From: [Mycobacterium] nativiensis
GTDB taxonomy: Bacteria > Actinomycetota > Actinomycetes > Mycobacteriales > Mycobacteriaceae
Assembly (NCBI RefSeq): GCF_020172685.1
Contig: NZ_CP083986.1
Span: 680,216 to 744,215, forward strand
Reading direction: 5' to 3'
Length of the DNA: 64,000 nucleotides
Shown one piece after another: positions 49,666 to 63,552 of the stretch (position 1 is the first letter of the stretch; the number at the start of each line of letters is the position of its first letter). The translations under genes and the position numbers were made by a program. The notes under the pieces are model-generated. The model was not told where the DNA came from, did not search any database, and saw nothing but the letters and a program-made list of their open reading frames with translations.

Positions 49666-52020
49666 TTATCGGACGTGCTGCGGGACGTGCGGTGCGCCGT
49701 CGCGCAGCTCATGGCGTCCTGAGGCGTGCGTGGCCACCGGCGACCCGTTGATCCGATAGGCGCTGTGTCGGGGGGTACCGGGCGGTGCGGCGTGCCGGCC
49801 CGGGGAACCGTTCTCGCTGAGCTCGAAGCGTTGCGCCACCCACGCCAGGGGTTTGGGCGCCCACCAGGTCCATCGGCCCATCACATGCATGAACGCCGGT
49901 ACCAGCACCATCCGGACCAGCGTGGCATCCACCAACACCGCCAACGTCAGACCGAGGCCGAGCATCCGCATGAACGACACCTGCGCGGCGATCAACGCGG
50001 CGAACGAGATCGACATCACCAGCGCCGCGGCGGTGATCACCCGGGCGGTCCGGGCCACGCCCAGCGACACACTCTCGTCGTTGTCGGCGCGAGTGCGGCC
50101 CGACTCCAGCCAGTATTCGCGGATCCGGGACACCAGGAACACCTCGTAGTCCATCGACAGCCCGAACGCGATGCAGAACAGCAACACCGGCACGTTGGCC
50201 ACCAACGTCCCGGTGGGTGTTGTTCCGAACGCACCGAGATGGCCGTCCTGAAATATCCAGACCAGCGCCCCGAACGCGGCGACCAGCGACAAAACATTGA
50301 GGATCAGGGCCTTGGCCGGCAGCACCACGCTGCCGGTGAGCAGGAACAGCAGAGCGAACGTGATGGCGGCGATCAGACCCAGCACCAACGGCAGCCGGTC
50401 GGTGATGGCATTCACGCTGTCGCGGTTGATCTGCGCCAACCCGGCCAGCTGCACCGGCCGGTCGCCCGGGGCGCGCACCTGGTGCAGGTTGTCGAGCTGG
50501 GTCTCGGACCGCTGCGAGAACAGCGGTGCCCTGCTGGCGACCGTCAGAAACGCACTGTCGCCTGTGACCCCGGTTGCCGCGGCGGGGTCGCCGACCCGGG
50601 CGCCGTCGACGAAGGTGCCGGTCGGGGCCGACACCGACGACACGTCGGTGACCCGGGACAGATCGGCCGCATAGCGACCGAGTTCGTCGGCCGGCACGCC
50701 GGCCATGTCGGGAAGGACGATCGGCACCGCCCGGTCGGAGTCATTGGCGAAGTCGTTGCGCAGCGCGTCTCCGACCTGGTGCGCCGTCGCCGACCGCGGC
50801 AGGACCCGGTCGTCGGGGAAGCCCCACTTCACCCCGAAGAACGGCAGCCCGACCGCCACCAGCAGTGTGACCACCGCCAGGCCGATCGGCACCGCGCCCC
50901 GTGTCACGAATTTCGTTGCCCGGTACCAGAACTGCTGCTCTACCGGCCGGGCGGTGGGTGCCGGCCTGCGCAGCAGCCGGCGTGCGGGCCGGCGCACGTC
51001 CAGCGCGTCGAGCCGGGGTCCCAGAAATGCGATCCCCGCCGGTGTCACCACGATCGCCGCGAGCGCAACGAAACCCACCGTCGCCACCCCGGCATAGGCG
51101 AACGACTTCAGGAAGTACATCGGGAACAGCACCATGGCCGCCATCGACAGCGCGACTGTGCTCGCCGAGAACAGCACGGTCCGGCCGGCGGTGGTCATGG
51201 TCGCGATCAGCGCCCGGTCGGGGGCGACGCCGTCGGCCAACTCGTCGCGGTAGCGGTTGATGATCAACAGCGTGTAGTCGATCGCCAGTGCCAGGCCCAT
51301 CGCGGTGGTGAGATTGAGCGCGAAGATCGAGACGTCGGTGGCCAGCGTGATCAACCGCAGGACCGCCATCGACCCCACGATCGCCAGCCCACCCAACGCG
51401 ACCGGCAGGGCCGCCGCCAGCAGGCCGCCGAACACCCACACCAGCACCAGAAAGCTCAGCGGGATCGCGATCGACTCCATCAGCAGCAGGTCGTGCTGGT
51501 TCTGGTGGTTGATCTGCGCGTACACCATGGCGCCGCCGCCGGCGCGGACACTGACCCCGTCGCGGTCGTGCGCCAACTGATCGGCCAGGGCGCGGGCGTA
51601 GCGCTGCGCGTCGTTCTCGCCGCCCCTGAGGTTGGCCACGATCACCCCGGAGCTGCCGTCGGTGCTGATCAGCCGGGCGACGGCCGACGGTGGCCCGGTC
51701 CACGGTGAGGTGACGTTGTAGACGTGCGGCGACTGCTGTAGTTGCCCGGCGATGTCGGTGCCGATCGAGCGGGCCGGCTCGCCCGTGGCACCGCCGGGTG
51801 CGCTCAGCATGATCAGCAGCTGCTGGTCGCTCTGGCCGAACTGTTCAGCCAACACCTTGGTGGCCTGGGCGGACTCCGAGTTGGGGTCTTGAAAGCCGCC
51901 GGCGGACAGTTTGTCGGCGACCGGTATGCCGAAGACGGCGGCGGCGATCATCACCAGGAAAACCAGGGCGAGGACGCGACGTGGAGCGGCCAGAGCCAAC
52001 AAAGCGATCCGCTGCAGCAC
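49666..52020 (-). CDS. MmpL-family RND lipid exporter, SigL-controlled
   Basis: This RND-superfamily transporter has twelve helices in two halves. The first half has FALNLTTAMGLALAIDYTLL with the conserved Asp/Tyr pair, and the second LFCIAFGLSMDYEVFLVSRI. Two periplasmic domains lie between helices 1-2 and 7-8. From GTG 52020 the length is 784. This start has GGAAGG about 8 nt upstream. The longer reading from ATG 52080 would begin before the predicted SigL transcription start. It is divergent from the PKS operon with a shared 260-nt intergenic region carrying a SigL promoter on each strand, so it probably exports that operon's product. Confidence 0.9.
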   Translation of the reverse strand: MLQRIALLALAAPRRVLALVFLVMIAAAVFGIPVADKLSAGGFQDPNSESAQATKVLAEQFGQSDQQLLIMLSAPGGATGEPARSIGTDIAGQLQQSPHVYNVTSPWTGPPSAVARLISTDGSSGVIVANLRGGENDAQRYARALADQLAHDRDGVSVRAGGGAMVYAQINHQNQHDLLLMESIAIPLSFLVLVWVFGGLLAAALPVALGGLAIVGSMAVLRLITLATDVSIFALNLTTAMGLALAIDYTLLIINRYRDELADGVAPDRALIATMTTAGRTVLFSASTVALSMAAMVLFPMYFLKSFAYAGVATVGFVALAAIVVTPAGIAFLGPRLDALDVRRPARRLLRRPAPTARPVEQQFWYRATKFVTRGAVPIGLAVVTLLVAVGLPFFGVKWGFPDDRVLPRSATAHQVGDALRNDFANDSDRAVPIVLPDMAGVPADELGRYAADLSRVTDVSSVSAPTGTFVDGARVGDPAAATGVTGDSAFLTVASRAPLFSQRSETQLDNLHQVRAPGDRPVQLAGLAQINRDSVNAITDRLPLVLGLIAAITFALLFLLTGSVVLPAKALILNVLSLVAAFGALVWIFQDGHLGAFGTTPTGTLVANVPVLLFCIAFGLSMDYEVFLVSRIREYWLESGRTRADNDESVSLGVARTARVITAAALVMSISFAALIAAQVSFMRMLGLGLTLAVLVDATLVRMVLVPAFMHVMGRWTWWAPKPLAWVAQRFELSENGSPGRHAAPPGTPRHSAYRINGSPVATHASGRHELRDGAPHVPQHVR

Positions 52021-52080
52021 GTCAGCTACCTTCCGCCGAAATGGTCGACGAGAGGTGCCGCCGACACCCCCACCGAACAT

Positions 52081-52108
52081 GACACGAATTAGAAGTACGC
52101 AAGGTTCA
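52081..52108 (-). promoter_or_regulatory. SigL promoter for the MmpL gene
   Basis: On the minus strand TGAACC (52103-52108), 16 nt, CGTGTC (52081-52086). This matches the SigL pattern TGAACC-N16/17-CGTGTR as I recall it, and puts the start of transcription near 52074. Confidence 0.85.
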
Positions 52109-52246
52109 TCGCGGTAACCCGAACCAGCCTACCGGCCGCAACTCGCTGCCGCCGCAACAGTTTGTGGCTCGCAGGCGGGCGCACACCACATGGCCGCGGC
52201 CGGTGAATCGATACGACCGATCAACCCAACGTTTACCTGAAAACCT

Positions 52247-52274
52247 TGAACCGCGGCACCGGCCAGCCCGTGAC
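52247..52274 (+). promoter_or_regulatory. SigL promoter for the type III PKS operon
   Basis: TGAACC (52247-52252), 16 nt, CGTGAC (52269-52274), then 6 nt to ATG 52281. The mRNA would be leaderless. Confidence 0.85.
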
Positions 52275-52280
52275 CTCGAC

Positions 52281-53333
52281 ATGGACAACATCGCGACAAA
52301 CACCCCGACAGTGGCCGCTGTGGCCGTTGAATTCCCGCCCCACCAGCACACTCAGTGTGAGGTGATGGCAGCCCTGTCCGACTTCGCCGGACCCGAGTTT
52401 CGGCGGTTCGTCGCCAACAGCGGTGTGGCGACACGCCAACTGGCACTGCCGCTGTCGCGTTACCCCAAGCTCAGTGGCTTCACCGAAGCGAACGACGCCT
52501 ACCTCGAGATCGCCCTCGACCTGACCGAACGCGCATTGCAGTCGGCCCTGGATCAGGCCGGGCTGACCCCGTCCGACGTCGACGTGGTGTTCTCGACGAC
52601 GGTCACCGGGCTGGCCGTTCCGTCTTTGGAGGGACGACTGGTGACGCGGATGGGGCTTCGGACCGACGTCAAACGCATTCCGATGTTCGGCCTGGGCTGT
52701 GTCGCCGGTGCCGCGGGTCTGGCCCGGGTGCATGACTACCTGCGAGGCTTCCCGGATCAGGTGGCGGCGCTGATCGCGGTCGAGCTGTGCTCGTTGACGG
52801 TTCAACGTCAGGATCTTTCGGTCGGAAATCTTGTTGCTTCCAGCCTGTTCGGTGACGGCGCCGGCGCGGTCGTCGCGACCGGGGCGAGCCGGGCGAGCAC
52901 CGGCCCGAAGGTACTGGCGACGCGCAGCCGAACCTATCCCGACACCGAGGAGATACTCGGCTGGGACATCGGTAGCCAGGGCTTCAGCATCGTCTTGTCG
53001 GTCGAGATCGCCACCGTCGTACAGAAATACCTCGGTGACGACGTCCGCGACTTCCTCGCCGATCACGGCCTGGTGGTCGAAGACATCTCCACCTGGATTG
53101 TGCATGCCGCCGGCCCGAAGGTGATCGACGCGGTCGAAGAGGTGCTGGACCTTCCGCCGGATGCGCTCGACCGCACCCGAAACTCGTTGCGTGACCACGG
53201 CAATCTGTCGTCGGTGTCGGTGCTGGACATCCTCCATGATGTCGAGTCGGACCCGCCGAGGCCGGGCTCGCTCGGCCTGATGATCGCGATGGGGCCGGGG
53301 TTCTCCGCCGAACTCGTGCTGATGAGCTGGTGA
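52281..53333 (+). CDS. Type III polyketide synthase (chalcone/alkylresorcinol-synthase-like)
   Basis: This 350-residue homodimeric ketosynthase extends a (probably fatty) acyl-CoA with malonyl units and closes the ring. The catalytic triad is visible: Cys140 in GLGCVAGAAG, His in WIVHAAGPKVID, and Asn in LRDHGNLSSVSV. GSQGFSIVLS and the final GPGFSAELVL are family-typical. It is closest in type to mycobacterial Pks10/Pks11. It heads an operon with an ICMT-like methyltransferase and a flavin monooxygenase, the same trio as Streptomyces srsABC for methylated, oxidised alkylresorcinols. A SigL promoter lies directly upstream. Confidence 0.93.
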   Translation: MDNIATNTPTVAAVAVEFPPHQHTQCEVMAALSDFAGPEFRRFVANSGVATRQLALPLSRYPKLSGFTEANDAYLEIALDLTERALQSALDQAGLTPSDVDVVFSTTVTGLAVPSLEGRLVTRMGLRTDVKRIPMFGLGCVAGAAGLARVHDYLRGFPDQVAALIAVELCSLTVQRQDLSVGNLVASSLFGDGAGAVVATGASRASTGPKVLATRSRTYPDTEEILGWDIGSQGFSIVLSVEIATVVQKYLGDDVRDFLADHGLVVEDISTWIVHAAGPKVIDAVEEVLDLPPDALDRTRNSLRDHGNLSSVSVLDILHDVESDPPRPGSLGLMIAMGPGFSAELVLMSW

Positions 53334-53836
53334 TGATGTATTACCTGCTGATCCTGGCCGTCGGCGTGGAACGACTGGCCGAGCTGGCGGTGGCCAACCG
53401 CAACGCGCGGTGGGCATTCGCGAACGGTGGCAGGGAATTCGGGCACAACCACTATCCGGTGATGGTCAGCATCCACGCGGCACTGCTGCTCAACTGCGTC
53501 ACCGAGGTGTGGTTGTTGCACCGGCCCTTCATTCCGCTGCTGGGCTGGCCGATGCTCGCACTGGCGCTGTTGAGCCAGGGGCTTCGGTGGTGGTGCATCG
53601 CCACACTCGGTAAACGGTGGAACACCCTGGTGATCGTGATGCCGCAGACACCGCTGGTGCGCAGCGGCCCGTATCGGTGGCTGCACCACCCCAACTATGT
53701 GGCCGTGGTGGTCGAGGGCTTCGCGCTGCCGCTGGTCCACACCGCCTGGCTGACCGCGATCGGATTCACCCTCGCCAACGCGGCCGTGCTGCGGGTGCGC
53801 CTCCGGGTGGAGAACGCCGCACTGGGGTACCGGTGA
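53330..53836 (+). CDS. Isoprenylcysteine-carboxyl-methyltransferase-like membrane enzyme
   Basis: This 168-residue membrane methyltransferase has four or five helices and the ICMT hallmark LVRSGPYRWLHHPNYVAVVVEG near the C-terminus. In type III PKS operons such enzymes O-methylate phenolic lipids or alkylpyrones (BpsB, SrsB), and Rv1139c of the M. tuberculosis SigL regulon is of this kind. GTG 53330 overlaps the PKS stop and its own stop overlaps the next gene, so all three are co-translated. Confidence 0.9.
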   Translation: MMMYYLLILAVGVERLAELAVANRNARWAFANGGREFGHNHYPVMVSIHAALLLNCVTEVWLLHRPFIPLLGWPMLALALLSQGLRWWCIATLGKRWNTLVIVMPQTPLVRSGPYRWLHHPNYVAVVVEGFALPLVHTAWLTAIGFTLANAAVLRVRLRVENAALGYR

Positions 53837-54849
53837 GCGCCACCGATGCCGATCTGCTCGTCGTGGGCGGCGGGCCGGCGGGCCTGGCCACCGCGTTATA
53901 CGCGCGCCAGCAGGGGCTTTCGGTGATCGTCGCCGAGCCGCGGAACAATCCGATCGACAAGGCCTGCGGTGAGGGGTTGATGCCGGGCGGGCTGGTCGCA
54001 CTGACGTCGCTCGGGGTGGACCCGGCGGGGCTGCCGTTGCGCGGTATCGCCTACCTCGACGAGCGGCGCCGGATCGAGGCGCCCTTCCGCGACGGGCCGG
54101 GGCGCGGGGTGCGCCGGACCACTTTGCACGCCGCACTGGCCGATCAGGCCAAGCAGAACGACGTGGAATGGATTTCGAAGCGGGTCGACCATGTCGACCA
54201 GGATGCCCGGGGGGTGGCGGCGGGCGGGATCCGGGCGAAGTGGTTGATCGCCGCCGACGGGCTGCACTCCACGGTGCGGCGCAGCGTCGGGATCCCGTCC
54301 GTTGCCGGCACACCGCGGCGCTTCGGGGTGCGATGGCACTACCGGATTCCGGCCTGGTCGGAGTTCGTCGAGGTGCACTGGTCCCGGTGGGGCGAGGCCT
54401 ACGTGACCCCGGTGGAGCCGGATCTGGTGGGCATCGCGATCCTGTCGCCGCATCGTCCCGAACTCGGCTGGTTTCCCGAGTTGGCAGCCCGTGTCGCCGG
54501 TGCGCCGCGCGGCCCGGCTCGTGGTTGCGGCCCGATGCGCCAGGTGGTTTCGCGCCGGGTCGCGGGCCGGGTGCTGCTGGTCGGTGATGCGGCCGGCTAC
54601 GAGGACGCGCTGACCGGTGAGGGCATCAGCCTGGCCGTCAAACAGGCGGCTGCCGCCGTCGCCGCGATCGTCGACGACAACCCGGCAGCCTACGAGCGGG
54701 CCTGGCCGGTGATCACCCGGCGCTATCGACTGATCACCCGAGCGCTGGTGCTGGCCAGCGCTCCGCAGTCGACCCGACGGGCCTTGATCCCGGCGTGTGA
54801 ACTGTTGCCCGGGGTGTTCGAACGTGCCGTGCATCTGCTGGCCCACTGA
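53833..54849 (+). CDS. FAD-dependent monooxygenase/reductase of the PKS operon
   Basis: This 338-residue flavoprotein has the FAD motif DLLVVGGGPAGLATALYARQ, KACGEGLMPGGLVAL (geranylgeranyl-reductase/hydroxylase-like), and a GD motif VLLVGDAAGYEDALTGEGIS. It probably hydroxylates the phenolic polyketide ring, as SrsC does; Rv1138c of the M. tuberculosis SigL regulon is a comparable enzyme. GTG 53833 overlaps the methyltransferase stop. The last 116 nt overlap the 3' end of the convergent aminotransferase gene. Confidence 0.9.
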   Translation: MSATDADLLVVGGGPAGLATALYARQQGLSVIVAEPRNNPIDKACGEGLMPGGLVALTSLGVDPAGLPLRGIAYLDERRRIEAPFRDGPGRGVRRTTLHAALADQAKQNDVEWISKRVDHVDQDARGVAAGGIRAKWLIAADGLHSTVRRSVGIPSVAGTPRRFGVRWHYRIPAWSEFVEVHWSRWGEAYVTPVEPDLVGIAILSPHRPELGWFPELAARVAGAPRGPARGCGPMRQVVSRRVAGRVLLVGDAAGYEDALTGEGISLAVKQAAAAVAAIVDDNPAAYERAWPVITRRYRLITRALVLASAPQSTRRALIPACELLPGVFERAVHLLAH

Positions 54850-55843
54850 GCGCCCGCTCGACCGCTGACAGCACCATCCGGGTGGACGTGCGGGTACCGA
54901 TCGTGATGCGCACCGCGCCATCGGGGTAGTGACGAACCTGCAACCCGGTGCCGAAGAAGATCTCTCGCCACGGCCGGCCGGCCGCGGGCAGGTACACGAA
55001 GTTCGCCTGCGAGTCGGTGGTGTAGACACCCGCGGACCGCAGCCGCGCCTGCAGGTGGTGGCGTTCGGCGGTGATCTGCTCGATCCGTTGTCGCAGCTGC
55101 GCTTCGGCATCGTAGGAAGCCTCTACCGCCACCATGCAACTGGTGGGGATGCCGAACGGTATCTGCATGGCCCACAGCAGCGCCGCCGGTGCCGGTGCCG
55201 CCAGGCCGTAGCCGATCCGCAGGGCGGCCAGCCCGTAGGCTTTGGAGAAGGTCCGCAGCACCACCACATTCGGGAATCGCCCGATGAGCTCCGAGACATC
55301 GAGGCGCTGGTGCGGCGCGACGAATTCCCTGTAGGCCTCGTCGAGCAGCACGATGGTGTCACCGGGGATGTCCGTCAGGAACCGTTCGACATCGGTGGCG
55401 GACTCCAGCGTTCCGGTGGGGTTGTGCGGCCGGCACAGCACTACTACGCGGGCGCTGGCGGCGGCCCGGGCCATCGCGGTCAGGTCATGGTGGCCGTATC
55501 TATCCAGCGGGACTTCGACCGTCGTCAACCGGGCCATCCGGGCGAAGATCGGATAGCCGTCGAAAGTCGGCCGGCTCAGCACGATCCGATCACCGGGGCG
55601 GGTCATGGCGTGCAGAATCTGCATGGTCACACCGGACGCTCCGGCGCCGAGCATCACGGTCTCCTCGGGCACACGTGCGTGGTCGGCCACCAGCCGGCGC
55701 AACCGGGTGGGCAGGAAGTCCGGGTACCGGTTGGCCGCGCCGATGGACTGGATCAGTGCCGCGCTCACCGCCGGCAGCGGCGGAAAGGGATTCTCGTTGA
55801 GTGACAACGCGAACGGGTCGCCGGCCACCGACATAGGGGTCAT
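54734..55843 (-). CDS. PLP-dependent aminotransferase (HisC/aromatic type)
   Basis: This 369-residue fold-type I aminotransferase shows SLNENPFPPLPAV and MLGAGASGVTMQILHAM. It has the substrate/PLP region RPHNPTGT, Asp in VLLDEAYREF, and the PLP lysine in LRTFSKAYGLAALRIGYGLA. These are traits of histidinol-phosphate and aromatic aminotransferases. It is the last gene of the minus-strand operon, overlapping the KAS III-like gene by one base. The C-terminal 38 codons run into the convergent flavoprotein gene. In context it may supply or consume an aryl-pyruvate. Confidence 0.9.
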   Translation of the reverse strand: MTPMSVAGDPFALSLNENPFPPLPAVSAALIQSIGAANRYPDFLPTRLRRLVADHARVPEETVMLGAGASGVTMQILHAMTRPGDRIVLSRPTFDGYPIFARMARLTTVEVPLDRYGHHDLTAMARAAASARVVVLCRPHNPTGTLESATDVERFLTDIPGDTIVLLDEAYREFVAPHQRLDVSELIGRFPNVVVLRTFSKAYGLAALRIGYGLAAPAPAALLWAMQIPFGIPTSCMVAVEASYDAEAQLRQRIEQITAERHHLQARLRSAGVYTTDSQANFVYLPAAGRPWREIFFGTGLQVRHYPDGAVRITIGTRTSTRMVLSAVERALSGPADARHVRTPRATVHTPGSRPVGSTAERWPAPALG

Positions 55844-56862
55844 CAGGCTCGCCCTCCCCATCGGATGGCCGCTGCGCCGGCGAAGTCGCCGGCGTGGGCA
55901 AATCCGGCCATCACCACCACCTCGCCCGGGTTGAGCCGCTGCTCGGTGATCGCCCGATCCAGGTTGATCGGAATCCCGGCGCCGAACAGGTTGCCGCACT
56001 CATCAAAGGTATCGACGTGCCGTGAGTCGGGCAGTTCGAGCGCTTCGCGCCAATTGCGCAGGAACACCCGGTTGGGCTGATTGGTGACCAGGAGGCCGAT
56101 ATCGGCGGGACGCAGGCCATTTCGATGGCAGATCGCCAGCGCGACCTCGGGGACCTGCCGGTTGCCGCGCGCCATCACCTTGGTGATCTTGTCTTCGGTG
56201 AAGCCGATGTAGCCGGCACCGGGACCGGGCTGCCACCATTTGCGGGGCGGGTCGATGGTGTAGGTCATGTCACCGGCGTATTCGCCGTAGGTGCGGCACT
56301 CGACGTCGAGGATCGGCGATTGATCCGAGCACGTGACCAGTCCGACCGCCGCACCGTCGCCGGGTACCGAGGCCTGCGACTTGCCGCGCACTGCCGGCTG
56401 GTCGAAGACCTGGCCGGCGGCGTTCTGGGCGATCGCGATCAACGCGCTGCGTCCCGCTCCGGCCGCCAGCAGTTGCCGGGCTACGTTGAGGCCCAAGATG
56501 AATGCGGCACATCCGCCGTTGTGCAGATCCAGCACCGACGACGGGCGCATGCCGAGCCGGTGGGCGATGCCGCCGCCGGATCCGTTGAACGGAATGTCCG
56601 GCAACTGGGTGTGGGTGATCAACACGTCGACGCCTTCGATGACCTCGCGGCCGTGGCGCTCGATCAGTCCCTGCGCGGCCTGCTCGATCATGTCGGCCGC
56701 GGACTCGTCGGCGGCGACGTGGTGGCGGAGCTTGGGCGCCCGGAACATCACGTTGTCCCGCAACTCGTCGGATTCGGCGAACTGTGCGTAGTAGTCCGCG
56801 GGGATCGGTTCGCCGGGAAGGTAACTGGAGACGTCGGTCAGACTCACGGTGGGTGGGTTCAT
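55843..56862 (-). CDS. KAS III-like acyltransferase with altered active site
   Basis: This 339-residue thiolase-fold protein resembles FabH. The nucleophile Cys118 is present (LHNGGCAAFILGL), and the Asn of the triad is in DECGNLFGAG. The catalytic His of the usual PHQAN motif is replaced: the segment reads VTNQPN, with Asn261 at that place. Decarboxylating condensation needs this His, so the enzyme more likely transfers acyl groups than elongates chains. It starts 7 nt after the SRPBCC gene and overlaps the aminotransferase start. Confidence 0.85.
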   Translation of the reverse strand: MNPPTVSLTDVSSYLPGEPIPADYYAQFAESDELRDNVMFRAPKLRHHVAADESAADMIEQAAQGLIERHGREVIEGVDVLITHTQLPDIPFNGSGGGIAHRLGMRPSSVLDLHNGGCAAFILGLNVARQLLAAGAGRSALIAIAQNAAGQVFDQPAVRGKSQASVPGDGAAVGLVTCSDQSPILDVECRTYGEYAGDMTYTIDPPRKWWQPGPGAGYIGFTEDKITKVMARGNRQVPEVALAICHRNGLRPADIGLLVTNQPNRVFLRNWREALELPDSRHVDTFDECGNLFGAGIPINLDRAITEQRLNPGEVVVMAGFAHAGDFAGAAAIRWGGRA

Positions 56863-56869
56863 GATCGGC

Positions 56870-57535
56870 TCATCTCATCCAGGACGGTGTGATGGGCAGG
56901 CCGTTGTGGTGGCGGTACTCCGCGATGGCCTTGAGGTTCTTCATCTCCAGCAGGTGCCCGGCGCTGAACATGTCCCAGAAGTCGCCTACCCAGACCGGGC
57001 GCTGCGGCGGCGCGGCCTCCGGATACGGGTTGTCGTCGTAGAACGGGTGGTGGCAGTTGGTCCACAGCACCACCGATCCGGGCTTGTTCAGCACCACCTG
57101 GGCGTCGATGACCCGGAGCAGATAGATCATCCACAGGTGGTGGCCCTGATCCCATGCGCAGTGGTAGTCCACGGTGCGTGAGCGACTCTCGGCGACGGTG
57201 CGGGTGTAGATCTCGGTCTCCGAACCGAGCCGGTCGTGGGCGAGCCAGAGGCCGGGTTCGTCGGTGGGGGTGAAGCCGCGCAGACTGTAAGTCCACTCTT
57301 CCAGGCACCGGGTGTCGGCCAGGTAGTCGAACAGTTCGTCGGGCGGGCAGTCGATGTAGTCGTTCACGGTGCAGTAGTCACCGAAGACGACATCGTGCGG
57401 GTAGACCGACCGCATCATCTCCATGATGATCGGGGTGGCCACCTTGCGGGGGCTGGACTCTATCCGGACCAGGCCGTCGATGGCGTCGGCTGAACCGGTG
57501 TGGGCGGTGATATCAGCGAGTGCCGGCAGTGACAT
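56870..57535 (-). CDS. SRPBCC-fold (polyketide cyclase/START-like) protein
   Basis: From ATG 57535 the 221-residue protein has a START-like core: VNDYIDCPPDELFDYLADTR, EEWTYSLRGFTPTDEPG, YTRTVAESRSRTVDYHCAW. Such folds bind or cyclise hydrophobic ketides. A His- and Trp-rich C-terminal half (HHPFYDDNPYPE, VGDFWDMFSAGHLLEMKN) is not typical and could add metal ligands. The start lies 23 nt inside the ThDP gene, so the two are coupled. Confidence 0.8.
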   Translation of the reverse strand: MSLPALADITAHTGSADAIDGLVRIESSPRKVATPIIMEMMRSVYPHDVVFGDYCTVNDYIDCPPDELFDYLADTRCLEEWTYSLRGFTPTDEPGLWLAHDRLGSETEIYTRTVAESRSRTVDYHCAWDQGHHLWMIYLLRVIDAQVVLNKPGSVVLWTNCHHPFYDDNPYPEAAPPQRPVWVGDFWDMFSAGHLLEMKNLKAIAEYRHHNGLPITPSWMR

Positions 57536-59222
57536 AGCGGTGATCCTCCTGACGGGTTGGTGCGGCAGCGGAAAGAAACGGTGCGAACGGCGGGATCTCA
57601 TCGGCGGCGCATTCGACGCTGACCACTGACGGGCCGTCGTGGGCCAGCGCGGTGCGCAACGCGGCGCCGAATCCGCCGGCGTCCGCCGTCTCGATCGCGT
57701 TGAGTCCCGGGAACATCGACGCCAGGCCGGCGCCGAGATGGCTGGGGGTGTAGCGGTTGTAGCTGTGCAATCCGTCGTAGAACAGTCGTTCGCGAGTCAC
57801 GCACATGCCGTGGGCGTTGTTGTTGAGCAACACGAACAGGACCGGGAGCCGGTACTGCACCGCGGTGTGGATCTCCATGCCGTGCATGAAGAACGCGCCG
57901 TCACCGGCGATCACCACGGTGCGCCGGCCGCGGCCCAACGCCGTCCCGATGCCGGCGCCGAAGCTGTATCCCATCCCGCCCATGCCCAGGGCGACCAGGA
58001 AGCGGCCGCCGCGCCGCGGCGGCAGGTAATGGATTGCTGCGGCTCCCGTGTTTCCCGCGTCGACGACGATGTCGACGCTGTCCGGTAGTTCATGGTCGAG
58101 CACCCGCATCGTGTCGCGGTAGCGCACCCCTGGCCCGGCGTAGGGCGGCGGCCGTAACTCGGTGCGCGGCAGGGTGTCGGGTACCCGCAGCCACCGCGGC
58201 CGCCCGGGCCCGGTCAGCGCGCTGCACAGCCTGCTCAGCGACGCCTGCAGGTCGATCGTCTGCACGTGGGTGCACGGAAGATACGGTGGCGCCGAGCCGA
58301 TCGACACGGTACGGACACCGGCCAGCGCCGCATCGAGACCGGCGCGCGCGGTCTGCGACAACCGGGTGCCCACCACCAGGCACAGTGCACTGGCCGCGAC
58401 CGCTTCGGCGACCGAGGGGTTACCCATCACGCCGGCCACACCCAGCGCCGAGGACGCACCGAAACCCGTTGTGCCGGAGACATCCTTGGCGTCGGGAACG
58501 CACACCACCCGCGCCCGCAGCATGGCGCGCAGTTCCTCGAGTTCATTCCGGGCGTCGTCGCGGGCCACCTGTTCGCCCGCGATGATCGTCACCGGGCCGT
58601 GGGCCCCGCGCAGCGCGTGCAGGATCGGCTGCGGGTTGCCGATCGGTGGCCGCTCGGAATCGTGTATGCCGTTGCGCAGGCAGGTGCCGATCGTGATGAT
58701 GCCCTGCTGAACGTCCTTGGGTAACAACAGCACCGCCGGCCCGCCGCGACGGGCGGCGCCAATGGCGCGCGGCAACGCCGCGACGATGTCGTCGGGGTCC
58801 AGCACCCGCTCGCAGAAGAGCGACACTCCCGCGAACAACGCCTGCGCGTCCAGCGCGCCGTTGCGGCCGCTGGTGTCCTGAAAGCTGCCGCGGCCGTCCA
58901 TCGCGTGTGGGGCCTGGCCGACCAGCGCCAGTACCGGCACCCGGCTGGCCAGTGATTCACCCAGTCCCGCGATCAGGTTCAGCGCGCCGCCGCCCGACGT
59001 CGCGGCCACCACCCCCAACCCGGCGCCGCTGCGGCTGTATCCATCGGCCATGGTGGCGGCGCCGAACTCGTGCTTGGCCAGCACCGTCGTGATGTCGGTC
59101 CGGAAATACGCTGCGTCGTAAAGATCTTCGATGTTCGCTCCGTCGACGCCGAAGATGTGGCGTACTCCCGCTGGCGGCAGCTGGGCGACGATGTGGTCGA
59201 CAGCGGAGTAGTTCCTCGACAT
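57513..59222 (-). CDS. Thiamine-diphosphate-dependent enzyme (acetolactate-synthase-like)
   Basis: This 569-residue three-domain ThDP enzyme has the cofactor Glu in VLAKHEFGAATMADGYSR, TSGGGALNLIAGLGES, FQDTSGRNG, and the ThDP-Mg motif IAGDGAFFMHGMEIHTAVQY with LLNNNAHGM. It resembles acetolactate synthase or benzoylformate-type enzymes but sits among KAS III-like, SRPBCC and aminotransferase genes, so an acyloin-forming role is plausible. ATG 59222 lies 6 nt after a SigL -10 element. Confidence 0.9.
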   Translation of the reverse strand: MSRNYSAVDHIVAQLPPAGVRHIFGVDGANIEDLYDAAYFRTDITTVLAKHEFGAATMADGYSRSGAGLGVVAATSGGGALNLIAGLGESLASRVPVLALVGQAPHAMDGRGSFQDTSGRNGALDAQALFAGVSLFCERVLDPDDIVAALPRAIGAARRGGPAVLLLPKDVQQGIITIGTCLRNGIHDSERPPIGNPQPILHALRGAHGPVTIIAGEQVARDDARNELEELRAMLRARVVCVPDAKDVSGTTGFGASSALGVAGVMGNPSVAEAVAASALCLVVGTRLSQTARAGLDAALAGVRTVSIGSAPPYLPCTHVQTIDLQASLSRLCSALTGPGRPRWLRVPDTLPRTELRPPPYAGPGVRYRDTMRVLDHELPDSVDIVVDAGNTGAAAIHYLPPRRGGRFLVALGMGGMGYSFGAGIGTALGRGRRTVVIAGDGAFFMHGMEIHTAVQYRLPVLFVLLNNNAHGMCVTRERLFYDGLHSYNRYTPSHLGAGLASMFPGLNAIETADAGGFGAALRTALAHDGPSVVSVECAADEIPPFAPFLSAAAPTRQEDHRYVTAGTR

Positions 59223-59228
59223 GCCAGT

Positions 59229-59256
59229 GACACGGCGGCCGACCGGCATTGGTTCA
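59229..59256 (-). promoter_or_regulatory. SigL promoter for the ThDP-enzyme operon
   Basis: On the minus strand TGAACC (59251-59256), 16 nt, CGTGTC (59229-59234), then 6 nt to ATG 59222. The -35 element lies across the rslA stop codon. Confidence 0.85.
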
Positions 59257-59997
59257 CATGGCGCGTTCCAGCAGCACCTTGCCGTTGTCGGCGGAAACCA
59301 CCTGTACCGACGCGATCTTGTCGGTGGGCGTCGAGATGCTGCCGGCCGGCGTCGCGGTGTGCCCGGGCTGTGCCACCCAGGTCGCCAGGCGGGTCTGGGT
59401 GCCGTCGCGGTCGATGACCACCAGGGCCAAAGTGTCGTGATGCGCGGTCACCGGAGCCAGGCAGACGCAGCTCAAGTCGATGAAGCTGCCCCAGGGCTTG
59501 CTGCTGACCGCGACGGTCGAGGCCAGCTCGGTGGTACCCACCTGCGCCATCGGCAACGCCTCCTGCGTCGACGACGGGGACGGGGAGCCTCCGACACCGA
59601 CCAGGACACCGATTCCCAACACCGCGGCAGCGGCACTGCTGGCCGCCCAGGTCACCAACCGGGTGCGGCGGCGGCGCCGGCGCACCGTGCTCAGCAGCGA
59701 CGGCAACAGCTCCGGCGAGAGCTTGGGAACCACGACCGCCTGGTCGCCGTCGGCGATGGCGGCAACGGTGCTGTGTTCGAGCTGCGAAAGCAGGGCGGGC
59801 ACGCCGCTGATCTCTGCGACCGCGCTCCGGCATGCCGAACAGCCGGTCAGATGCTGCTCGAACTCACGACGGTCGGCTGCGGACAGCGAACCCAGTACGT
59901 AGGCGGCGTCCCACATCGCGTAGCGGTGGTCCCCGTCATCCGGAACCGCACGGGGTCCGCCGTAACCGGCCGGACCGAATTCGCGTGGCGGCGTCAT
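59254..59997 (-). CDS. rslA: Zinc anti-sigma factor RslA
   Basis: RslA holds SigL inactive at the membrane until a redox signal releases its zinc. The 247 residues have an N-terminal ZAS domain with His-x3-Cys-x2-Cys in EQHLTGCSACRSAV after YAMWDAAYVLGSLSAADRRE. One membrane helix follows (about 112-135, LVTWAASSAAAAVLGIGVLV), then an exported domain with a CVCL pair. It overlaps sigL by ATGA (59994-59997). Length and motifs match Rv0736. Confidence 0.93.
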   Translation of the reverse strand: MTPPREFGPAGYGGPRAVPDDGDHRYAMWDAAYVLGSLSAADRREFEQHLTGCSACRSAVAEISGVPALLSQLEHSTVAAIADGDQAVVVPKLSPELLPSLLSTVRRRRRRTRLVTWAASSAAAAVLGIGVLVGVGGSPSPSSTQEALPMAQVGTTELASTVAVSSKPWGSFIDLSCVCLAPVTAHHDTLALVVIDRDGTQTRLATWVAQPGHTATPAGSISTPTDKIASVQVVSADNGKVLLERAM

Positions 59998-60527
59998 CGT
60001 GTCACCCCCATCTCCTGCAAGGCGAGTCGCAGTGCCCGCACCGCATAGTGCAGGCGGGATTTAACCGTTCCCTCGGCGATCCCGAGGTCTTCGGCGATCT
60101 GTGTGGTTGTCCATCCACGGTAATAGGACCGTTCGATCACAGCCTGGTGTTCCTTCGACAGTTGGGTCATGGCGTCGCCGATCAACATCCGATCCAGTGC
60201 GTTGTCCACTTCGTCGCGAGTGGGCTGCTCTGGTGGGGCCGTCTCGTCGAACAGGGCGACGACGTTGCGGTACTGGGCGCTGCGGCGCTCATCGATGATC
60301 ATGTTGCGTGCGACGGTGCACAGCCAGGCCCGCGGCGAGCGCTCGGGGTCGCTGAAGACCTCCGGGTGCTGCCAGGCACGCAGCAGCGTCTCCTGGACGA
60401 CGTCTTCGGCGCGGCTCCGGTCGCCGGTCAGGCGCAGCGCGTAGCGCCACAACACTGCGGCGTGCTCGTCGTAGAGCGTCTTCATCAACGCGGCTTCATG
60501 GTCCGGCGGGATACCGACTCGAGGCAT
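59994..60527 (-). CDS. sigL: ECF sigma factor SigL
   Basis: This 177-residue ECF sigma factor has region 2 (LYDEHAAVLWRYALRLTG, AEDVVQETLLRAWQHPE, RAWLCTVARNMIIDERR) and region 4 (LSKEHQAVIERSYYRGWTT, IAEDLGIAEGTVKSRLHYAV). The size equals SigL of M. tuberculosis, whose regulon includes a type III PKS, an ICMT-like protein, an oxidoreductase and its own operon. The same kinds of genes surround it here behind matching promoters. AGGAGGTG precedes ATG 60527, and a SigL promoter lies upstream. Confidence 0.94.
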   Translation of the reverse strand: MPRVGIPPDHEAALMKTLYDEHAAVLWRYALRLTGDRSRAEDVVQETLLRAWQHPEVFSDPERSPRAWLCTVARNMIIDERRSAQYRNVVALFDETAPPEQPTRDEVDNALDRMLIGDAMTQLSKEHQAVIERSYYRGWTTTQIAEDLGIAEGTVKSRLHYAVRALRLALQEMGVTR

Positions 60528-60547: not shown

Positions 60548-60575
60548 AACACGACGTGGATATCCGACGGGTTCA
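60548..60575 (-). promoter_or_regulatory. SigL autoregulatory promoter
   Basis: On the minus strand TGAACC (60570-60575), 16 nt, CGTGTT (60548-60553), about 20 nt before the sigL ATG. Confidence 0.85.
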
Positions 60576-60577
60576 GC

Positions 60578-62191
60578 TCAGTCGGGCATCCAGTTCCCGT
60601 GGAACCCGTGCGGAACGCGGCGCGGCAACCGCACCCGGGCGACCGGTTTGCCGCCGAAGTCGGAGGCGTCGATGATCACCAGGTCGCTGCCGTCGCGCAC
60701 CGGGTCATAGACGTAGGTCAGATACCAGCCGGCCGATTCGTCCGACTGGCCCGGCGACGGTGCGAACACCGCCTCACCGGGTGCACCGGATGCGCCGTTG
60801 ACGCCGAACCGGTGCACCTGCGCGTCTCCGCGCGCCAGGTCGTAGCGGATCAGGCCGTTGCTGGTGACCGTGACGGCGTAGCGGGCGTCCGCGCCGACCA
60901 ACCGATCGTCGACGCGGGGGAACTCGATGTCGCGGTCGTCGAGCTGGGCCTCCTCGACCACACCGGAATCCAGGTTGATCGTCCAGCGCCACAGCACGGC
61001 GTCGGTCTCGAAATCGCTATTGTTGCGCCACATCTCCGGGTAGCGGACCACCTGCAGGACGATCTCGGCACCCCGGTCGAACGCGTTGGCGATGTGGAAC
61101 ACGTAGCAGGGATCGATGTCGAACCAGCGGACCGGACCGTACGGGTCGTCGCGGCGCAGCACCCCCAGCCGGGCGCCGTAGTGCTCGTCCCAGCGGAACG
61201 GCAGGTCGCGTTCGTAGCGGGCGGTGAGCGCGACGTCCAGGTTGAACACCAGCGGCAGGTCCATGAACACGACGTGTTCGGCGGTCAGCGCGAAGTCGTG
61301 CATGAGCGTCATCCCGGGCACGTCAATAGGGCGGCGGATGATGAGGTCGCCGTCGGCGGTTGCGCGGTAGTAGTTGACGTGCGGGTCGAAGATGTCGCCG
61401 TGGCCGAAGAAATGCAGCTCGCCGGTGGTGGGGCAGATCTTGGGGTGCGCGGCCATGGAATCGGCCAGTTTGCCGGCGAAGTCGTAGACGCCCAACGTCT
61501 TGAGGTCATTGGTGATCTCATACGGCAGCGAGGACTCCATCAGCGCCAGTGTCTTGCCGGCGTGGCGGATCACGTGGGTGTTGGCCACGCTGGAGTGCAG
61601 GTCGCGACTGCCGTCGGGGTTGAAGAGCTGCAGCGGTTGACCGAAGCTCTCGGTGCGCACCCAGCGGTTGCGGTACCAGGCCGCCCGGCCGTTCTCGAGC
61701 CGCACGCCGTGGACCATGCCGTCACCGGTGCACCAATGCCCGCCCGCCTCGCGCGGGTTGGGTCCGTTGCGCAGGTACCAGCCGTTCAGTTCGGCCGGGA
61801 TGGTGCCCTGCACCGGCAGGTCGAACGCGGTGAGTTCGTCGGGGACCGGGGCGTAGTTGCCGGTGCGGAAGATCGGCAGCACCGTCTCCGGGGGCTGGAG
61901 CACCGCGACCGATCCGCTGGATTCCGGGCGATCCGAGCCGTTGAGGGTGCGGTGGGTGACGGTGGTCAGCGAAACCTGCCCGGCCAGCAGCGCATCGTCG
62001 TCGATCGCGGTGACGTCGTCGCGGTTCAGCAGCGACAGCAGCGCCGGCATCCCCGACAGTTCGTTCACCGAGTCCCGGCACGACGGGCACTCGCCGAGGT
62101 GCGTCTCGAACTCGCGATGGTCGGACTCCGACAGCGATCCCAGCACGTAGGCGGCATCCCACAGGGCGTACTCGTGGCGAGATGTGGTCAT
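60578..62191 (-). CDS. Fusion of a ZAS anti-sigma domain to a carotenoid cleavage oxygenase
   Basis: The 537-residue protein has two parts. Residues 1-60 are a near copy of the RslA zinc domain (YALWDAAYVLGSLSESDHRE, then THLGECPSCRDSVNEL with His-x3-Cys-x2-Cys). After a linker, residues from about 85 to the end are a carotenoid/RPE65-type oxygenase with its four iron-binding His regions: AAHPKICP, TLMHDFAL, CYVFHIANAFDRG and GFHGNWM. Unlike RslA it has no membrane helix. ATG 62191 overlaps the upstream region-4-only sigma gene by 4 nt, exactly as rslA overlaps sigL. The enzyme would cleave carotenoid- or stilbene-like double bonds. Confidence 0.9.
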   Translation of the reverse strand: MTTSRHEYALWDAAYVLGSLSESDHREFETHLGECPSCRDSVNELSGMPALLSLLNRDDVTAIDDDALLAGQVSLTTVTHRTLNGSDRPESSGSVAVLQPPETVLPIFRTGNYAPVPDELTAFDLPVQGTIPAELNGWYLRNGPNPREAGGHWCTGDGMVHGVRLENGRAAWYRNRWVRTESFGQPLQLFNPDGSRDLHSSVANTHVIRHAGKTLALMESSLPYEITNDLKTLGVYDFAGKLADSMAAHPKICPTTGELHFFGHGDIFDPHVNYYRATADGDLIIRRPIDVPGMTLMHDFALTAEHVVFMDLPLVFNLDVALTARYERDLPFRWDEHYGARLGVLRRDDPYGPVRWFDIDPCYVFHIANAFDRGAEIVLQVVRYPEMWRNNSDFETDAVLWRWTINLDSGVVEEAQLDDRDIEFPRVDDRLVGADARYAVTVTSNGLIRYDLARGDAQVHRFGVNGASGAPGEAVFAPSPGQSDESAGWYLTYVYDPVRDGSDLVIIDASDFGGKPVARVRLPRRVPHGFHGNWMPD

Positions 62192-62586
62192 GGCGCCACT
62201 CCCATGTCGCGAAGTGTCCGCTGGAGGGTGCGCAGCGCGTAGTGCAGCTGTGCTTTCACGCTGGCTTCGGCGATGCCCAGGTCGGCGGCGATCTGCCCGG
62301 TGGTCCAGCCGTGGAAGAAAGCCCGGCCGAGCAGCACCCGGTTGTCGGAGGACAGCTGCGCCAAGGCGTCGACGACCAGGGGCCGCGCTTCGTGCTGGGT
62401 GGCGCTCGTCGTGTACGGGGACAGGCCACGCCTGCCGAGGGGGGCCCAGCCGGGGTCGTCGGCGGTCATCTGCGCGGCACCCGTGACCAGGCACGACGGC
62501 ACCGGCCGCACGTGCGGGACTGCGCGGCCGGGGCCTGCTTGCGGTCGAGTCTCGAATTGTCGCTGGTTCTCCCGATACCCATACAC
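62188..62586 (-). CDS. Region-4-only SigL-like protein (no sigma region 2)
   Basis: The 132-residue frame ends in a complete sigma region 4 (DALAQLSSDNRVLLGRAFF, GWTTGQIAADLGIAEASVK, LHYALRTLQRTLRDMG) very like that of SigL. The N-terminal half shows no trace of region 2 and is low in structure. Without region 2 it cannot open a -10 element, so it may act as a decoy, an adaptor, or be decayed. The start may be GTG 62586 or ATG 62469 (93 residues). A short frame from ATG 62582 ends in a 4-nt overlap with ATG 62469. It overlaps the fusion gene by ATGA. A SigL promoter lies upstream. Confidence 0.75.
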   Translation of the reverse strand: MYGYRENQRQFETRPQAGPGRAVPHVRPVPSCLVTGAAQMTADDPGWAPLGRRGLSPYTTSATQHEARPLVVDALAQLSSDNRVLLGRAFFHGWTTGQIAADLGIAEASVKAQLHYALRTLQRTLRDMGVAP

Positions 62587-62601: not shown

Positions 62602-62629
62602 GACACGAGGCGACGGCTCGTTCGGTTCA
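62602..62629 (-). promoter_or_regulatory. SigL promoter for the second sigma/anti-sigma-like pair
   Basis: On the minus strand TGAACC (62624-62629), 16 nt, CGTGTC (62602-62607). GGGAGG lies between it and GTG 62586. Confidence 0.85.
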
Positions 62630-62706: not shown

Positions 62707-63552
62707 CTAATTCGGGGTTTCCGGTGTCGCGGTGACCAGCGTCAGCTCCCAGGCGGCGAGCCACGGCTTGATCGACTGCCCGACGGAGTATTGGTGGGGG
62801 CCGTCGCAGGTGGGTTCGGAGTAGTCGCCGTTGGACACCGCGGTGAAGATCCCGACCGCTTGCGCGGTGCCGTCGGGCTGGATCCGGTACACCGGCCCGC
62901 CGGAGTCGCCGCAGGTGCCGGTGGCGGTGAACCGGACCTTGTTCTCCTCGCTGGCGACCACCGGCCCGCAGACCGGGCCGCCGCTGCGAATCCCGAAATG
63001 GCAAAGGGTGTCACCGATTTCGACGTGTTCAGCCAGGCCGGTCACCGGATGCCCGTCGACCTCGGAGGTCAGCGGGATCTTGCCCGGGTGATCGACGGTG
63101 ATCAGCCCGATGTCGAAATCGTTCCAGTCGTTGCCGTCGTAGACGCTTTCGGTGAAGGTGCCCACGACCGGATATTTGTAGAGGCCGCCGTGGTGCACGG
63201 CCACCTTCCCGGGCCCGCCGGGCTTGTTGCAGTGGCCGGCCGACAGCAGCCCGGGCTGGCCGTCCTTGGTGCGCACCAAAAAACCCGCGGTGCAGCTGAT
63301 GTTGTCGGAGCCGTCGGCGGGGCTGACGTTGATGCCGATCCCGGGGCCGATGGACTTGGCGGTGGGCGTGGGGATCGGCTGGCGGATCGGGTGGGTGTGG
63401 TTGACCCAGATCGCGCTGGCGATGATCGCGGTGAAGACGACGATGACGCTCAGCCTGCCCGCCAGGGTCTTCAGCGAGCGTTTCGGCGACACCGGGGTGA
63501 CTCTACTGAGCGGGCCGGCGATTACCGCGACTACCGGGCGTTTTACGCGCAC
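62707..63552 (-). CDS. Exported trypsin-like (S1/streptogrisin-type) serine protease
   Basis: This 281-residue protein has an N-terminal signal anchor (GRLSVIVVFTAIIASAIW) and a chymotrypsin-fold domain with the triad in order: His in LLSAGHCNKPGG, Asp in DWNDFDIGLITVD, Ser in TGTCGDSGGPVYRIQPDG. Six cysteines suggest disulfides. A later GTG (about 15 codons on) is another possible start. It is not preceded by a SigL-type promoter that I can see. Substrate unknown. Confidence 0.9.
   Translation of the reverse strand: MRVKRPVVAVIAGPLSRVTPVSPKRSLKTLAGRLSVIVVFTAIIASAIWVNHTHPIRQPIPTPTAKSIGPGIGINVSPADGSDNISCTAGFLVRTKDGQPGLLSAGHCNKPGGPGKVAVHHGGLYKYPVVGTFTESVYDGNDWNDFDIGLITVDHPGKIPLTSEVDGHPVTGLAEHVEIGDTLCHFGIRSGGPVCGPVVASEENKVRFTATGTCGDSGGPVYRIQPDGTAQAVGIFTAVSNGDYSEPTCDGPHQYSVGQSIKPWLAAWELTLVTATPETPN

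Follow-up and report, generated by a model that had tools for sequence, protein, structure and literature searches.

A 64,000-nucleotide stretch of the [Mycobacterium] nativiensis genome (contig NZ_CP083986.1, forward-strand positions 680,216 to 744,215; hereafter the window, numbered from its first letter) carries on its minus strand two tandem modules of one plan, in each of which a sigma factor gene runs through a 4-nt overlap into a gene for a protein with a zinc anti-sigma (ZAS) domain, and the elements lie where a first-pass annotation had described them. The downstream module consists of sigL (59994..60527), a complete extracytoplasmic function (ECF) sigma factor with regions 2 and 4, and rslA (59254..59997), a membrane anti-sigma factor with its ZAS domain, both intact by open reading frame (ORF) and profile, as had been claimed. 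The upstream module, on the same strand, pairs a small ORF (maximal extent 62188..62586), which encodes a SigL-like region 4 only, with a 537-residue ORF (60578..62191) in which, by Pfam profiles, a ZAS domain is fused to a carotenoid oxygenase; stop and start codons of the two, read from the sequence, meet in the ATGA at 62188..62191. The fusion is conserved, and we consider here, tentatively, that it may represent a duplicated sigma/anti-sigma pair turned into the holder of an enzyme.

The amino-terminal domain of the fusion (62030..62176, minus strand, as are all features below unless marked otherwise) is of the RslA type. The zf-HC2 profile falls on residues 14-39 with 28.4 bits against a cut-off of 22.2, residues 3-68 match 3hug_B (E=1.6e-21), and identity to the window's RslA reaches 63% over 60 residues. 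The zinc ligands His25, His50, Cys54 and Cys57 of RslA have their counterparts in His6, His31, Cys35 and Cys38, spaced H-X24-H-X3-C-X2-C. A fast-evolving linker (61877..61996), predicted to be disordered (predicted local distance difference test, pLDDT, about 30), leads to the oxygenase domain (60584..61855), on which the RPE65 profile scores 375 bits over residues 113-536. A profile score above the cut-off, a beta-propeller fold and the four iron-ligand histidines H249, H298, H366 and H531 place this domain in the carotenoid oxygenase family (PF03055); the histidines, whose motifs the annotation had recognized, are invariant across 36 aligned fusions and also across 55 sequences, 36 of which are stand-alone relatives. 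In the predicted structure the ZAS domain, the disordered linker and the beta-propeller follow one another, the longest predicted helix having 13 residues, and judged from these helices, no membrane predictor having been run, an anchor of the RslA type is not seen; profiles and model thus bear out an anti-sigma domain that has lost its membrane part and carries a full oxygenase. The model built from 55 sequences has a pLDDT of 86.6, that from 36 sequences 63, and the fold comparison covers the oxygenase domain alone and is silent on the ZAS fold.

The fusion is found, free of stops, in at least 29 of the 396 genomes sampled from the genus, a lower bound set by the threshold used (E <= 1e-225), and 98-100% of its length is covered among the 120 database homologues listed. 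Genomes sampled across the family contain a related oxygenase in 78 of 401 cases (E <= 1e-60), of which only six matches extend back into the ZAS domain, all within this genus. An assembly join or a frameshift between the two domains, which had been named as the observation that would undo the proposal, is ruled out by the same open fusion in independent genomes and in the listed homologues, and as an explanation it is vanishingly improbable. The fusion is real and conserved. Among 40 oxygenase domains placed on a tree (51 loci minus identical rows, plus 8 stand-alone) it has a single origin (support 100/99) out of stand-alone mycobacterial enzymes, and unlike those enzymes (L021-L025, L090-L113) it has both an in-frame zinc motif, found in 0 of 29 stand-alone relatives, and a SigL-type promoter, found within 500 nt upstream of 0 of 29. 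HxxxCxxC occurs in 121 of 121 proteins examined and, at the same position, in 29 of 29 fusions of the genus, the fourth zinc ligand (the first histidine) in 25 of 29. No paper on the ZAS-oxygenase fusion was found in the literature searched, most subscription journals being outside its reach.

The promoter-like site ahead of the pair (62603..62629) is an exact TGAACC-N16-CGTGT(CA), reading TGAACC-N16-CGTGTCAC, and confirms the SigL-type promoter noticed earlier; with at most one mismatch it precedes the fusion operon in 25 of 29 genomes, two of the four misses being contig ends. The site scan gives sigL-rslA the same type of promoter (TGAACC-N16-CGTGT, 60549..60575), kept with at most one mismatch in 25 of 29 genomes, so that the window's two modules share promoter type as well as gene overlap. 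We take TGAACC to be the SigL -35 consensus, for which the support here is the conservation of the site. The -10 half follows the published SigL preference along CG-TGN(C/A)A and departs from it at the final G (PMC6372665). Exact sites number four in the window against 0.23 expected, and TGAACC-N16/17-CGTGT occurs five times in the whole 5.28-Mb genome, four of them inside the window, ahead of the fusion operon, sigL, a gene for a thiamine pyrophosphate (TPP) enzyme and an MMPL gene. With the pattern reversed as a control there were 0 matches in this genome and 0-4 per strand in 58 others, and a lone site in another genome therefore means little. The SigL-type promoter suggests that the fusion operon belongs to the SigL regulon.

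In the small protein the region-4 models score 34.1 and 29.4 bits, above cut-off (Sigma70_r4_2, 34.1 against 25.7), and its helix-turn-helix (62224..62376) matches 3hug_A (E=2.9e-19) and is 52% identical over 63 residues to region 4 of the window's SigL; region 2 gave no match in Pfam and none against SigL region 2. The description of the second sigma protein as region 4 only therefore stands for the window. Its start may be ATG 62469, giving 93 residues (62188..62469), aligned with the starts of relatives and of the same length as the nearest database homologue, or GTG 62586, giving 132 residues and lying 16 nt past the -10 element, where full-length loci have GTG-ATG. Across the 29 fusion genomes, however, the partner is a full ECF sigma factor in nine and region 4 only in 20, a count that includes two seen only at contig ends. 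The full partners form one group (98/87) nested inside the mycobacterial SigL clade (96/94), and the partner is therefore a SigL duplicate; the idea of a duplicated regulator is upheld by this and by the grouping of the pairs in joint trees. On the oxygenase tree the region-4-only state requires two separate changes, one in a Mycolicibacter-type group (18 rows) and one in a group of four that includes the loci of M. celatum and M. kyorinense. As read from these sequences, the region-4-only state is later than the fusion, which arose beside a full-length sigma factor; region 2 of this partner disappeared afterwards, along two branches or more. The proposal of a rebuilt regulator holds in that an oxygenase stands in place of the membrane part, but not in taking the region-4-only sigma protein as original. 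At promoter-bearing loci the ATG lies 19-20 nt past CGTGT in seven of seven full sigma genes and 18-20 nt past it in 11 of 18 region-4-only genes, and the celatum-type proteins begin MDIPE as the full sigma factors do and pass directly into region 4; region 2 would thus have been excised internally and in frame, at least in those loci.

A ZAS domain joined to an effector is not confined to the oxygenase. A search with the ZAS domain only returned, among the best 120 of 160 matches (organism Mycobacterium where named), proteins of about 920 residues in which an RslA-type ZAS domain stands ahead of an AAA_16/STAND ATPase (P0138 and similar), and such fusions occur in at least five of the 396 genomes of the genus (L167, L168, L169, L197, L211). 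They resemble the oxygenase fusion in promoter type, SigL-like partner and ZAS type, and differ in the effector and in size. A SigL-type site with N16 spacing lies upstream of all five loci (three exact, two with one mismatch), the ATGA overlap was read at three (L167-L169), and the partner is full at two, truncated in region 2 at one and region 4 only at two. A tree built jointly from region 4 and ZAS, limited to 120 columns with a poorly resolved backbone and to four of the five STAND pairs (L211 out; L117, L118 and L126 also left out), puts the RslA pairs in one group (96/85) and the four STAND pairs outside it among the oxygenase-type pairs, so that the sigma4-ZAS unit appears to be carried by two unrelated effectors; the two region-4-only STAND rows are sisters (97/96), and the STAND effectors that carry a ZAS domain group together (94/89). 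By the same sequence comparison, region 2 has been lost again within the ZAS-STAND modules. One candidate, P0217, was rejected as a sigma-ZAS fusion, being an RslA with a long amino-terminal extension.

How far the ZAS domain of the fusion has kept its sigma-binding surfaces can be read by segment. Class I anti-sigma domains bind sigma4 with a three-helix bundle and sigma2 with a fourth helix (PMC7406223). The bundle, including the zinc site, is kept in the fusion as judged from the alignment, and within the ZAS domain of Mycolicibacter-type fusions conservation is highest in helix 1 (0.88); the same holds for RslA (0.99), and the feature is therefore not specific to the fusion. Residues 57-66, the candidate helix 4, are weakly predicted in the model and have a mean pairwise identity of 0.28 in Mycolicibacter-type region-4-only fusions and 0.30 in full-sigma fusions, with 0.45 and 0.42 in RslA and a higher value, 0.77, in the four celatum-type fusions. 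A juxtamembrane segment of LLPxLL type, present in 24 of 29 RslA proteins, 0 of 20 region-4-only fusions and three of nine full-sigma fusions, was considered as the sigma2-binding helix 4 but is probably not that helix, since, counted from His25, it maps to a disordered tail: the RslA crystal construct comprised residues 1-108, of which about 22 at the carboxyl terminus were disordered (PMC2877774), and the crystal helix 4 must therefore precede the segment. In four genomes (L088, L089, L135 and L136) RslA itself has no leucine-rich juxtamembrane segment.

The evolutionary rates bear on whether the region-4 protein and the ZAS domain still do anything. The ratio of nonsynonymous to synonymous substitution (dN/dS) in region 4 of the fragment is 0.54 (codon bootstrap 0.35-0.78) in 14 of the 16 Mycolicibacter-type genomes, two contig-end rows having been dropped, and 0.35 (0.16-0.78) in four celatum-type genomes; SigL region 4 in the same genomes gives 0.15 and 0.21, and the full partners 0.22. 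The ZAS domain of the Mycolicibacter-type genomes has a value of 0.42, with an interval that excludes 1. By these values the fragment is kept under relaxed purifying selection. Such relaxation, in region 4 and ZAS alike when set against SigL, is what would be expected if the oxygenase were the sole working part and the rest a decaying relic, the small ORF being retained by translational coupling through the ATGA. Against this, both intervals exclude 1, the zinc motif is in place in every fusion of the genus and its fourth ligand in most, translational coupling would be served by any ORF and would not call for a region-4 fold, and the same reduction of region 2 recurs with the STAND effector; we regard decay as unlikely.

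The changes within region 4 bear on a further possibility, that the small protein still has a part in transcription, either by forming half of a split sigma factor or by binding the -35 element in competition with SigL. Its helix-turn-helix is retained, with K156 in 19 of 19 rows and T or S at position 154 in 19 of 19, and a precedent exists in SigO of Bacillus subtilis, a natural protein with sigma region 4 and no region 2 that works in transcription with a separate region-2 protein, RsoA (PMC8103513). The neighbour of the small protein is, unlike that of SigO, an anti-sigma enzyme fusion, and no separate SigL-like region-2 ORF was matched in the compared loci, the whole genome not having been searched. 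The contacts with the -35 element also appear to be lost. SigL S157 and R158, which by spacing and identity correspond to S172 and R173 of E. coli sigma-E, are invariant in 29 SigL proteins and nine full partners (changed in 0 of 38), and yet both are changed in 15 of 15 Mycolicibacter-type rows (to A and Q in the window), while R158 is W in three of four celatum-type rows; the sigma-E residues contact the -35 element (PMC6713349). A continued role in transcription is accordingly very unlikely in our estimate, and the lost DNA contacts are compatible with a switch to protein binding only, of which they are no proof.

The known system closest to the fusion pair is SigL-RslA of Mycobacterium (3HUG, PMC2877774), which region 4 and the ZAS domain match in structure searches and with which the zinc ligands are shared; the fusion pair differs from it in a sigma protein without region 2 and an oxygenase in place of the RslA membrane part. 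The hold of RslA on SigL depends on zinc and on redox state, sigma-L domain 4 and RslA were crystallised together, sigma4L co-purifies with RslA, and free RslA is protease-sensitive (PMC2877774). ChrR of Rhodobacter offers another parallel as a soluble zinc anti-sigma factor fused to a metal-binding carboxyl-terminal domain, but it holds a complete sigma factor and its cupin is described as a sensor (PMC8999054), whereas the second domain of the fusion is a full oxygenase and its partner region 4 only.

One explanation, which we prefer at somewhat less than even confidence and whose binding, induction and gating are argued from sequence and analogy, is that the locus encodes a SigL-induced enzyme complex closed by a sigma4-ZAS clasp. 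The sequences show that a mycobacterial sigL-rslA pair was duplicated, that an enzyme of the carotenoid oxygenase family took the place of the RslA membrane part in the second copy, and that the operon has a SigL-type promoter, through which it would be SigL-induced. Region 2 of the partner sigma factor, the half that binds RNA polymerase and the -10 element, was later lost at least twice on separate branches, while the zinc site and region 4 stayed in place. The region-4 protein would no longer direct transcription; by analogy it most likely docks on the ZAS domain of the fusion as sigma-L domain 4 does on RslA, and once docked it would stabilise the fold of the zinc domain and fix the enzyme in a single state. 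When the CxxC thiols are oxidised, zinc would be set free and the clasp loosened, altering the stability, assembly or activity of the enzyme. Both the activity of SigL and the state of the enzyme would then respond to one redox signal. Sequence data favour such a clasp, without proving it, because of the single origin of the fusion, the two forced changes to region 4 only, the internal in-frame loss of region 2 in part of the loci, the promoter in 25 of 29 fusion loci against 0 of 29 stand-alone oxygenases, the selection on region 4, its changed -35 contact positions and the recurrence with STAND effectors. Docking of the region-4 protein is indirectly supported by this selection and by the matches of the ZAS domain and the fragment to the two partners of the RslA/sigma-L domain 4 crystal.

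Several observations weigh against the clasp. Region 4 of the fragment evolves faster than that of SigL (0.54 against 0.15), and the stretch preceding it is near neutral (dN/dS 0.83). In the remaining seven of 18 region-4-only genes, the window's included, 113-133 nt separate the ATG from the promoter, and W139, T140, T141 and V155, conserved in SigL, are changed in four of four celatum-type rows. RslA covers both the DNA and the RNA-polymerase surfaces of sigma4 (PMC2877774), and lost DNA contacts could therefore also mean altered docking. In surface plasmon resonance sigma4L alone gave no binding to RslA, probably through self-association, and the binding of sigma2L was weak (PMC2877774). 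The modelled linker is disordered, and the structure accordingly shows no element that would gate the active site directly.

Together with decay, the main rival to the clasp is feedback on SigL itself, in which the fusion would be a soluble, SigL-induced anti-SigL that grips region 4, the region-4 protein a decoy that rivals SigL for the ZAS domain of the fusion or of RslA, and the oxygenase the source of a sensing or metabolic signal. The adjacent operons with their shared promoter type would fit such a circuit, as would the identities between the two ZAS domains and between the two region 4s given above. The oxygenase-type and RslA-type pairs nevertheless group separately (98/83), and the changes in the fragment at positions invariant in SigL suggest drift away from it; both remain compatible with cross-binding, and we consider feedback rather unlikely. 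A wider version of the preferred clasp, more doubtful than the clasp itself but suggested by the sequences of both fusion types, is that sigma4-ZAS, made from a SigL-type promoter, is a portable post-translational device set on unrelated effectors, under zinc-thiol redox control, from which the transcription half has been repeatedly discarded.

What the oxygenase acts on can be narrowed by what the fusion genomes make. The fusion differs from the carotenoid and stilbene dioxygenases of known structure in falling below the cut-offs of the three equivalog models matched, namely the 8'-apo-carotenoid 13,14-cleaving dioxygenase (NF052295, 388.8 bits against 675) and two lignostilbene dioxygenases (NF053778, 197.3 against 800; NF053780, 151.6 against 650). 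Phytoene synthase gave no match in the window's own genome. In a survey of 59 hand-picked genomes it was present in six of the 29 with the fusion, whereas 21 of 24 having a close stand-alone relative, and six of six of the same genus without a related oxygenase, possessed it (27 of 30 non-fusion genomes in all); a lycopene-cyclase domain occurs in the identical six fusion genomes. Common descent of the fusion genomes may account for some of this difference. A link to a carotenoid pathway was rejected on these counts. Since most fusion genomes have no phytoene synthase, the substrate in most of them is probably not a home-made carotenoid, and it may possibly be an apocarotenoid of outside origin, or a phenolic or isoprenoid compound made by the SigL regulon.

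The surrounding genes supply candidates for such a regulon. The cluster at 49666-59249 holds the TPP-enzyme gene (57513-59249, minus), an ORF without a Pfam match, a KAS III-like gene, an aminotransferase gene, type III polyketide synthase (PKS), ICMT and FAD-oxidoreductase genes (52164-54849, plus) and the MMPL gene (49666-52080, minus). The SigL-type site before the MMPL gene (52082..52108) is divergent from the plus-strand group; this site and that before the TPP-enzyme gene (59230..59256) sit on or beside the first start codons of the listed ORFs, whose true starts are therefore probably further downstream or leaderless. In M. tuberculosis, Rv1139c is presumably an ICMT and Rv1138c an oxidoreductase. 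Reported SigL targets of that species are pks7-pks10 and Rv1138c-Rv1139c (PMC13002591). The type III PKS gene shares a contig with the fusion, at a distance of up to about 9 kb, in 15 of 29 genomes, is distant or on another contig in 13 and has no match in one, and a fixed link between fusion and PKS cluster was rejected accordingly. The PKS part comes after rslA, with the TPP block absent, in L002, L017, L019, L020 and L028. Upstream of the fusion operon a 281-residue ORF (62707-63552, minus) has no Pfam match, resembles an S1 protease by eye only, and occupies the same place in 10 of 22 named loci.

Pairs of sigma and anti-sigma factors are familiar as switches of transcription, and the DNA record described here suggests the repeated conversion of such a pair into a holder for an enzyme. 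Region 4 and the zinc site were retained, as for the most part was the SigL-type promoter, when region 2 disappeared; this took place on at least two branches with the oxygenase and recurred with the second effector. Should the complex form, it would allow anti-sigma zinc domains to be tested directly as regulators of enzymes, would represent a minimal sigma4/ZAS pair of natural origin, and would open a way to the role of carotenoid-type oxygenases in those mycobacteria that have no phytoene synthase.

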